Source: an uncultured Alphaproteobacteria bacterium (GTDB taxonomy: Bacteria > Pseudomonadota > Alphaproteobacteria > RF32 > CAG-239). From it: a stretch of DNA of 48,692 nt. The stretch is from positions 1-48,692 of the forward strand of contig CANPYJ010000009.1 in NCBI GenBank assembly GCA_947588275.1. The letters run 5' to 3'. The position numbers and the translations under genes were made by a program. Shown piece by piece: positions 10,465 through 13,334 of this stretch; positions within the stretch are counted from its first letter, which is position 1; the number at the start of each line of letters is the position of its first letter. The notes beneath the pieces are model-generated. The model was not told where the DNA came from and ran no database searches. It saw nothing but the letters and a program-made list of their open reading frames with translations.

Positions 10465-10980
10465 ATGCCAGATATTATCCTCAAAATTAACGATATTGAC
10501 GATGTTATTTATGAAGCGGACGGAATCTGTTGCTATGTGGGAGAAACATCTTTGCCGGACGCGGTGTTTGAAAAGCTCAAAGCTACCGGAAAAATGGTTT
10601 TGGCAAGCGGCGAACGGGCGGTTGAAAAGGCGCTTGCGCTTAAGCTTGACGGAATAGTTATAAAGACAGATTCCGCCAAGCCGCTCAAAGCACAAATTCG
10701 TCCGCAGCGCGAAAGAATGGGGGCCAAGAAAGCCTTGGGCGTGATTGTCGCGCCTAGCCGTCACGAGGCCATGCTGGCGGCCGAAACCGAACCGGAATTC
10801 GTAGCCTTTGCCTGTACGCCGGAGAATCTGGAAAAAGTGCGGGAAACGGTCGATTGGTACAATGAGTTTTTTCTGATACAGTCAGCGCTGGCGCCGGAGG
10901 GGAAGATTGCGGCCGACAAACTGCCGGCAGCGGATTTTGTGATTTTAAATTCCGCCGAATATAAAGATTTTAGTTGCTAA
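10465..10980 (+). CDS. thiamine-phosphate synthase-like (ThiE/TenI fold) protein, divergent
   Basis: Pattern LDGIVIKT ... KKALGVIVAPSRHEAMLAAETEPEFVAF resembles the ADGVHLGQ ... IGVSxHsxeEAxxAxxxxADYVxFG of ThiE/TenI; located next to efp. Confidence 0.5.
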   Translation: MPDIILKINDIDDVIYEADGICCYVGETSLPDAVFEKLKATGKMVLASGERAVEKALALKLDGIVIKTDSAKPLKAQIRPQRERMGAKKALGVIVAPSRHEAMLAAETEPEFVAFACTPENLEKVRETVDWYNEFFLIQSALAPEGKIAADKLPAADFVILNSAEYKDFSC

Positions 10981-11037: not shown

Positions 11038-11601
11038 ATGAAACAACAAGCAGGCTCCATCCGTATCGGCTGGGTTATCGAATATAAAAACAAACCGTGG
11101 ACAGTTACCAAAACCAATTTTGTCAAGCCCGGCAAAGGCGGTGCTTTTATGCAGGTGGAAATGAAGTCGGTGGAAGAGGGAACCAAAACCAACGAGCGTT
11201 TTCGTACCGAGGACATGGTCGAGAAAATGATGGTCGAGACCAAAGACTGCCAATTTTTGTTTGAAGACGGCAACGGCCTAAACTTTATGGAAAGCGAGAC
11301 TTTTGAGCAGTTTGCGATGCCGGCGGACGTGCTGGGAGATTCTCGTCCGTTTTTGACCGATGGCATGGAGGTTAAGGCCAGCGTTATCGACGGCAAGCCG
11401 ATTTCCATAGAACTGCCGTTGCAGGTTATTTGCACGGTGACCGAAACCGAGCCGGTTATTAAAGGACAGACCGTGTCTTCTTCATATAAGCCGGCAATTT
11501 TGGACAACGGTGTCCGCACGACCGTGCCGCCGTTCGTCGGTACCGGAGATAAAATTGTGGTGGCAACTGCCGATGCGTCTTATGTCGAGAGAGCAAAATA
11601 A
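11038..11601 (+). CDS. efp: elongation factor P
   Basis: 187-aa EF-P with the conserved VKPGKGGAFMQVEMK loop and C-terminal VPPFVGTGDKIVVATADASYVERAK; GAAGGAG RBS. Confidence 0.98.
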   Translation: MKQQAGSIRIGWVIEYKNKPWTVTKTNFVKPGKGGAFMQVEMKSVEEGTKTNERFRTEDMVEKMMVETKDCQFLFEDGNGLNFMESETFEQFAMPADVLGDSRPFLTDGMEVKASVIDGKPISIELPLQVICTVTETEPVIKGQTVSSSYKPAILDNGVRTTVPPFVGTGDKIVVATADASYVERAK

Positions 11602-12359
11602 TGGCATATCTTTCATTGACGCTCAATTTTTTAATCGGCGTGGTCAAAAAGGCTGCGAATCCGCTGACACGCGATTTTAACGAGATTGAAAAACTGCAGA
11701 ATTCGGTGCGCGGGCATCAGGAGTTTGTGCGGGCGGCTCTGGAACGCGTGAGCAAGGCGCTGCGCGTGGAGTTGCAGAAAGGGCGTCCCAATTATGCGGT
11801 GATGAGCGATGCCGGCCAACTTCCGGAAATCCCGTGCTTTGTGATTGCCCCGCTGGACGGCGTTCTCAACTTTATGCACGGGATACCGTATTTTGCCGTT
11901 GCCGCGGCGATTGCCGAAAGAGGGGAGATTACGGCCGGCGTGGTCTATAATCCGGCGACCGGAGATTTGTATTTTGCCGAGAAGGGCAAAGGCGCGTTTA
12001 AGGAAGGCTATCGCAGTCAGGAAAGACTGCGGGTTTCAGCGCGTAAAGAGTTGAAAAATTGTTTGCTGGCGGCATCGGCGTCGGTGGACGGAATCGCCGA
12101 CTTTCGCAACAACGGTTCGCTCAGCTTGGATTTGGCCGGTTTGGCAGCCGGACGCTATGACGGGGTCGTCTGCCAAGGAGCCATGGCCGGAGAACTGGCT
12201 GCCGGAATGCTCTTGGTGAAAGAGGCCGGCGGGTATGTTTATGAATATAATCAAAAGGATATTCGCACGGATGATCAGGCGGCCGTCTTGCAGAGCGGAT
12301 GCCTGGTTGCCGGTAATGCAGCGGTCGGTGCAAAGTTGTTTACCGCGTTGCACAAGTAA
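11601..12359 (+). CDS. inositol monophosphatase (SuhB) family protein, probably catalytically degenerate
   Basis: IAPLDGVLNFMHGIPYFAVAAAIAERGEITAGVVYNPATGDLYFAEKGKGAF and GSLSLDLAGLAAGRYDGVV...LAAGMLLVKEAGG align to SuhB by eye. Overlaps the efp stop. Confidence 0.85.
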   Translation: MAYLSLTLNFLIGVVKKAANPLTRDFNEIEKLQNSVRGHQEFVRAALERVSKALRVELQKGRPNYAVMSDAGQLPEIPCFVIAPLDGVLNFMHGIPYFAVAAAIAERGEITAGVVYNPATGDLYFAEKGKGAFKEGYRSQERLRVSARKELKNCLLAASASVDGIADFRNNGSLSLDLAGLAAGRYDGVVCQGAMAGELAAGMLLVKEAGGYVYEYNQKDIRTDDQAAVLQSGCLVAGNAAVGAKLFTALHK

Positions 12360-12383: not shown

Positions 12384-13334
12384 ATGACAAAACGCATGAA
12401 ATCCGGATTGGCCGTATGTGTCGCGATTTGCAGTTTGACTCTGAGCGCGGAAGCACAGGAAGATTCGGTGTATGTGAATCTATCGGCGCTGGACGCTTTG
12501 GATAATTCGCAGGGGAGCGTTTTGTCTTCTACCGAGCCTTTGTTTCCGGTGATAAGCCGGCAAAAAGCCGTCAAAGCCCAAAAAGCCGGACGGGCCAAAT
12601 CGTCAAGGCCGGCGCACAAAAATGCTCCCAAACAGCCTGAGGCAAAAATTGCAATGCCTAAAAAATCGCCGGAAATAAATATGCCGGCGCTTGAAAAGCC
12701 GACGGCCGAGGCTTCGGCGGCTGTGGAACCACAGGCAGGCACATTGCAGGAAATACCGTATGTCGAAAGCAATGAGGCGGTTGTAGTGGTCGACGTTGAG
12801 CCGATTGCTCCGACTCCGGCGGCAGAAATACGGCCGGCCGATGTTTCGGAGACTGAGACTCCGGTCGATGAAACTCTTGCAGGCGGCGCACCGTCCGAGG
12901 AGATCTCGGCTCAGACGGCGTCCGCAGATGAAGCTGCCGCTCTGGCAGAGACCGCCGTTTCGGCTTCCAAGGCTAAGCTGCTGGTGGATGATGCGGCTGC
13001 GCCGGCAGCGGAAAAAGTCGTTCCGCCGGCGGCAGATTTGGGCAAACTGGTTTTTGAAGCGGATTCTGACGAATTGACGGACGAGCACAAAGCGGCTATC
13101 GACATGGCGCTTGCATCGTTCAGCGATGCCGTTCACAACAAGATTGCCATCTATTCTTATAATCTTGACGACGGAGTCGATACATTCAGAAAAAAACGGC
13201 TGAGCCTGAATCGTGCGGTGGAAGTGCGCGGATATCTGCTGCCGAAGGGATATAAGAATTTCAGCATTAAGGTCATTAATGTCGATGCCGAATCGGACAA
13301 AGGCAATACCGTTGTGCTGGAAGAACTGAAATAA
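12384..13334 (+). CDS. secreted Ala/Pro/Glu-rich protein with divergent C-terminal OmpA-like domain
   Basis: N-terminal signal peptide (MKSGLAVCVAICSLTLSAEAQ), long low-complexity middle, C-terminal LVFEADSDELTDEHKAAIDMALASF...RKKRLSLNRAVEVRGYLLPKGYKNFSIKVINV resembling OmpA_C. Confidence 0.65.
   Translation: MTKRMKSGLAVCVAICSLTLSAEAQEDSVYVNLSALDALDNSQGSVLSSTEPLFPVISRQKAVKAQKAGRAKSSRPAHKNAPKQPEAKIAMPKKSPEINMPALEKPTAEASAAVEPQAGTLQEIPYVESNEAVVVVDVEPIAPTPAAEIRPADVSETETPVDETLAGGAPSEEISAQTASADEAAALAETAVSASKAKLLVDDAAAPAAEKVVPPAADLGKLVFEADSDELTDEHKAAIDMALASFSDAVHNKIAIYSYNLDDGVDTFRKKRLSLNRAVEVRGYLLPKGYKNFSIKVINVDAESDKGNTVVLEELK

Follow-up and report, generated by a model that had tools for sequence, protein, structure and literature searches.

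The efp-suhB locus

The window, by which we mean the whole 48,692-nucleotide stretch of DNA that was analysed, comes from a gut alphaproteobacterium and carries efp, encoding elongation factor P (EF-P), and directly downstream of it a suhB gene whose ATG overlaps the efp stop codon (TAATG):

11038..11601, + strand: efp (elongation factor P); its stop overlaps the suhB start as TAATG
11601..12359, + strand: SuhB ortholog, 252 aa, inositol monophosphatase fold, predicted to be catalytically dead (ORF, profile search, alignment, AlphaFold model, fold comparison)

The 252-aa protein matches the Inositol_P profile PF00459 with 113 bits (cut-off 27), and by sequence its top match in the PDB is Bartonella SuhB (3luz, E 2.8e-40), followed by E. 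coli SuhB. An AlphaFold2 model built from a 38-row alignment (mean pLDDT 91.3, pTM 0.91) also has Bartonella SuhB as its top PDB fold match (TM 0.83/0.89). E. coli SuhB follows closely, on its own and as chains of the rrn antitermination complex, and its structure with NusA AR2 is matched as well. Profile score and IMPase fold, with TM values of up to 0.88 to SuhB structures, both place the protein in the PF00459 family. The closest solved structure by sequence and fold, SuhB of Bartonella henselae (3luz, 3lv0), is likewise an alphaproteobacterial SuhB, but it has the canonical DPLDGT motif, which the window protein lacks.

Across the genus, suhB lies directly downstream of efp, with the TAATG junction present in 32 of the 33 full-length genes. 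This position, together with the grouping of the protein with efp-linked SuhB, identifies it at the level of sequence as the alphaproteobacterial SuhB ortholog; deep branches inside Alphaproteobacteria are not resolved in the SuhB tree. Origin as a paralog born by duplication is not favoured, since synteny with efp holds throughout and the intact paralogs lie elsewhere and are distant. The non-efp IMPase paralogs of the genus (L014, L019, L022, L024, L027, L028 and a ~290-aa group carried by other genus genomes) are PF00459 members like the window protein, have intact motifs where these are covered, and are set apart by low identity and by the tree. A separate intact non-efp IMPase is present in 6 of the 34 genus genomes, and 15 of the 34, including that of the window, contain no further PF00459 member. 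The initial annotation had proposed looking for a second intact IMPase. The window genome amounts to 1.39 Mb in 39 contigs, with a listed completeness of 100%; a profile search found no second PF00459 protein in this 39-contig assembly, leaving no candidate there for compensation by such an enzyme.

The genes on either side of the pair have features of their own. The gene upstream of efp (10465-10977, + strand) has no Pfam or NCBIfam match; over 101 aa its product aligns at 30% with a ThiE (PF02581) encoded upstream of efp in another family (L002), and it appears to be a further degenerate enzyme beside efp. Downstream of suhB, the gene at 12384-13331 (+ strand) is OmpA-like and fast-evolving, scores just over the cut-off for PF00691, and keeps the same place throughout the genus.

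Replacement of the catalytic residues

We take the catalytic set of E. coli SuhB to be D44, E67, D84, D87, T89 and D212, corresponding to D47, E70, D90, D93, T95 and D220 of human IMPA1/IMPase. Residues were numbered by alignment of the window protein to E. coli SuhB (NP_417028, locus L086), in which D44, E67, E68, D84, T89, W211 and D212 align with L, D, A, A, V, G and E, respectively:

11739..11741, + strand: L47 codon, equivalent to E. coli D44 (human IMPA1 D47), lost (alignment)
11808..11813, + strand: D70-A71 codons, equivalent to E. coli E67-E68 (metal-ligand Glu), lost (alignment)
11847..11864, + strand: A83-P-L-D86-G-V88 codons, equivalent to D84-P-L-D87-G-T89; D84 and T89 lost, D87 kept (alignment)
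12189..12194, + strand: G197-E198 codons, equivalent to W211-D212, lost (alignment)

A catalytic inositol monophosphatase (EC 3.1.3.25) is expected to carry the metal ligands and the D44/T89 pair, and five of these six residues (D44, E67, D84, T89 and D212) are replaced in the window protein; D87 alone, the Asp of the DG pair, is kept, as D86. The motif losses described in the initial annotation (E67/E68 to D70/A71, D84 to A83, T89 to V88, and W211/D212 to G197/E198) were all recovered, and the alignment to E. coli SuhB that it had suggested as a check revealed no intact metal site; the loss of D44 (L47) is an addition to its list. Chance or sequencing error is excluded as the source of these changes because the same losses recur in other species of the genus. 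The sequence therefore indicates a pseudoenzyme. With the IMPase fold kept and a catalytic metal site predicted to be unable to form, Mg-dependent phosphatase activity would not be expected, and we infer with high confidence that the protein lacks it.

A dead SuhB relative is present in all 33 other genomes of the genus, and the same dead protein occurs in ~20 genomes of related genera. D84 and E67 are absent from every efp-linked copy in the genus (in L059, cut at a contig end, D84 is the one of the two positions that can be read). Named genomes were scanned as well, and the dead protein turned up in further gut MAGs from sister genera, in some of them with D87 lost too. In a tree computed with the active-site columns left out, the dead proteins form one clade with 98% ultrafast bootstrap and an SH-aLRT of only 47. 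A genome of the same order and another family (G034) encodes a SuhB with all metal ligands present and T89 replaced by S. Two contigs labelled Lactobacillus sp. (L114) and Candidatus Paceibacterota (L130) carry alphaproteobacterial SuhB, that of L130 with its active site partly lost; the MAGs are probably mislabelled or come from mixed bins.

Given that most dead relatives keep D87 and that some have an acidic residue at position 212, residual metal binding or new chemistry may persist among them. A re-specialised enzyme or ligand sensor, carrying out other chemistry or binding a metabolite via D87 together with K134, E135, R138 and R222, would fit both the retention of the D87 equivalent in ~81% of the dead clade and the clade-wide conservation of new polar residues. 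We nevertheless regard such a protein as improbable: the substituted positions vary freely among species and do not converge on a new set, and D87 is also lost in L108, L110-L112, L115, L116 and L118-L122.

Repeated loss across Alphaproteobacteria

Our survey covered one genome from each of ~130 alphaproteobacterial families, with SuhB beside efp read from the DNA around efp. A SuhB ORF adjoins efp in 107 genomes from ~105 families, and efp is found without an adjacent SuhB in 18 sampled families. All six catalytic residues are present in 87 of the 107 efp-linked SuhBs, and the protein appears dead in 15 of the 107 genomes, representing 14 families:

Dead: G000, G081 (the family of the window), G042, G051, G055, G092, G117, G123, G128, G136, G142, G154, G159, G163, G164
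Remaining rows: G068, partly changed; G034 and G061, T89 only; G098, cut short; G126, too divergent to judge

On an EF-P tree the dead state corresponds to 13 changes, at least 8 of which are forced by well-supported branches, the number of losses being approximate (187 columns, two long-branch rows). The direction is that of loss, because the outgroup and most families are active. These data indicate that the active site has been lost many times independently across Alphaproteobacteria. Outside the survey count, SuhB-like proteins that were not found beside efp, and are dead or partly dead, occur in G102 (L182), G140 (L188) and G166 (L172). The dead lineages have smaller genomes than the others (median 1.5 vs 2.75 Mb; Mann-Whitney p = 0.0002, uncorrected for kinship).

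Selection on the dead protein

Concentration of the losses in small genomes, where genes decay, would be in keeping with a decaying pseudogene. Within the genus, however, the frame is open in 33 of 33 full-length suhB genes, and dN/dS between close pairs, restricted to those with unsaturated synonymous sites, is 0.04-0.11, compared with 0.00-0.02 for EF-P and mostly about 0.1-0.24 for the gene downstream of suhB. Neither a broken frame nor a dN/dS near 1, as expected of a pseudogene, is found. The open frames and dN/dS values refute this reading for the genus, and with the fixed junction and the confident fold they make a decaying pseudogene or an assembly artefact exceedingly improbable. Because dN/dS is this low in close pairs, the dead SuhB appears to be a maintained protein under purifying selection and not a decaying gene. 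The description of the protein in the initial annotation as a probable pseudoenzyme under selection is thus strongly supported, by family-wide ligand loss, open frames, constraint, a confident fold and repeated independent loss.

Segments gained, lost or conserved

At 41 columns, at least 95% of the active efp-linked SuhBs share the residue; 8 of these columns belong to the active site and 33 do not. The dead proteins keep the conserved residue in a mean of 13% of cases at the active-site columns vs 75% at the other 33; since six of the 8 active-site columns served to define the dead set, the 13% is partly so by construction, and the informative part is that the rest is kept. Two segments stand out:

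11670..11705, + strand: R24-S35 codons (RDFNEIEKLQNS), shared by active and dead efp-linked SuhBs of Alphaproteobacteria; candidate binding surface (column conservation)
12000..12023, + strand: K134-E141 codons (KEGYRSQE), a lineage-specific segment that the dead family conserves as KEGxRNHE and that carries a 4-residue insert (family alignment)

The first contains an N-terminal RDFxEIExLQ motif that is retained in active and dead efp-linked SuhB, has no counterpart in E. coli SuhB or the non-efp paralogs, and is a candidate contact surface. The second, KEGxRNHE with its 4-residue insert (FKEGYR-..RLRV), is characteristic of the dead family, as is a QKDIR segment. The initial annotation had also noted a shortening before ADFRNNGS. 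This shortening is real and amounts to ~18 residues, but only members of the genus show it: much of the segment is still there in dead relatives from sister genera, among them Azospirillum sp. CAG:239 (L101). Because these relatives are dead without the deletion, we reject it as part of the active-site loss and treat it as a separate event.

A proposed non-catalytic role

E. coli SuhB, a Nus factor and inositol-1-monophosphatase, shares fold, family and a full-length alignment with the window protein. It differs in having an intact metal site and in not lying beside efp; R184 and the AR2-contact residues also differ between the two, and the RDFxEIExLQ and KEGxRNHE segments belong to the window protein. 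The main cellular role of E. coli SuhB is held to be non-catalytic (PMC6614801, PMC4807359). Effects of suhB mutation are relieved without phosphatase activity, which is reported to be dispensable, and variants unable to bind RNA polymerase fail to complement (PMC6614801); SuhB works with Nus factors in ribosome biogenesis (PMC4807359). On this precedent, the dead protein may act as a scaffold in the transcription machinery. The best explanation of the gene is that it is a vertically inherited, efp-linked SuhB of Alphaproteobacteria turned pure scaffold, and we consider it probable that this scaffold is efp-coupled, non-catalytic and, most likely, a Nus-type accessory of RNA polymerase. Its synthesis would probably be translationally coupled to that of EF-P, and it would act through protein or RNA surfaces, most likely in rRNA synthesis or ribosome assembly, like E. 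coli SuhB.

The Nus partners that such a role calls for are present: the NusA encoded in the window genome has both C-terminal repeats, and a search for NusB succeeded in 35 of 35 genomes. These findings lend indirect support to the Nus/RNA polymerase role proposed in the initial annotation, which is plausible, and we hold the Nus-like function and the identity of the partners with moderate confidence. A strict copy of the E. coli system is less well supported. The ~170-nt rRNA leader of a relative (G007), the one leader from the genus that could be used, contains no match to the E. coli boxA consensus with 2 mismatches or fewer, and the E. coli residues that contact NusA-AR2 (K251, L254) are unconserved in the window protein, as they are in active alphaproteobacterial SuhB; the missing boxA, in one leader, and the unconserved K251/L254 speak against such a copy and cast indirect doubt on the Nus role. 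E. coli R184 is also replaced in the window protein. The 16S gene is absent from the assembly of the window genome. The G007 leader (L301, 2900-3500, - strand) has a promoter-like TTGACA/TATAAC ~170 nt upstream of 16S.

Alternatively, the non-catalytic role could be tied to EF-P and translation instead of the Nus complex, with the SuhB fold binding EF-P, the ribosome or tRNA. Such a role would explain the fixed TAATG coupling, seen in nearly all genus genes (32/33), the efp-suhB adjacency in ~105 families, and the alphaproteobacteria-specific RDFxEIExLQ, which active and dead efp-linked SuhBs share and which the non-efp-linked E. coli SuhB and paralogs lack. Operon neighbours, however, often share expression alone, in 18 of the sampled families no SuhB adjoins efp, and no contact between EF-P and SuhB was found in the literature searched; we judge a translation role unlikely, if less so than a re-specialised enzyme. 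Comparably tentative is a broader proposal, in which efp-linked alphaproteobacterial SuhB would serve the gene-expression machinery above all as a structural partner, possibly contacting a partner other than NusA AR2 (EF-P or the ribosome) via RDFxEIExLQ, with the phosphatase an optional activity shed about a dozen times. The Nus-type accessory remains our preferred reading.

Significance

The family and the non-catalytic role of E. coli SuhB are already known. In the literature searched we found no report of repeated natural loss of chemistry in SuhB orthologs, no paper linking SuhB with the term "pseudoenzyme", and none describing a "catalytically inactive" inositol monophosphatase in alphaproteobacteria. 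Two functions have been described for SuhB, phosphatase and Nus factor, and arguments over which of them is under selection have drawn on E. coli mutants. That the metal site has repeatedly been lost in nature while the gene stays under strong constraint is evolutionary evidence that Alphaproteobacteria maintain SuhB for its non-catalytic role: a dead SuhB under selection, together with many independent losses, suggests that the important job of SuhB in this class is not chemistry. The dead and active orthologs form a comparative set from which candidate binding surfaces can be picked out and with which the question can be tested, and where "inositol monophosphatase" is annotated beside efp, the gene product may sometimes be no enzyme.
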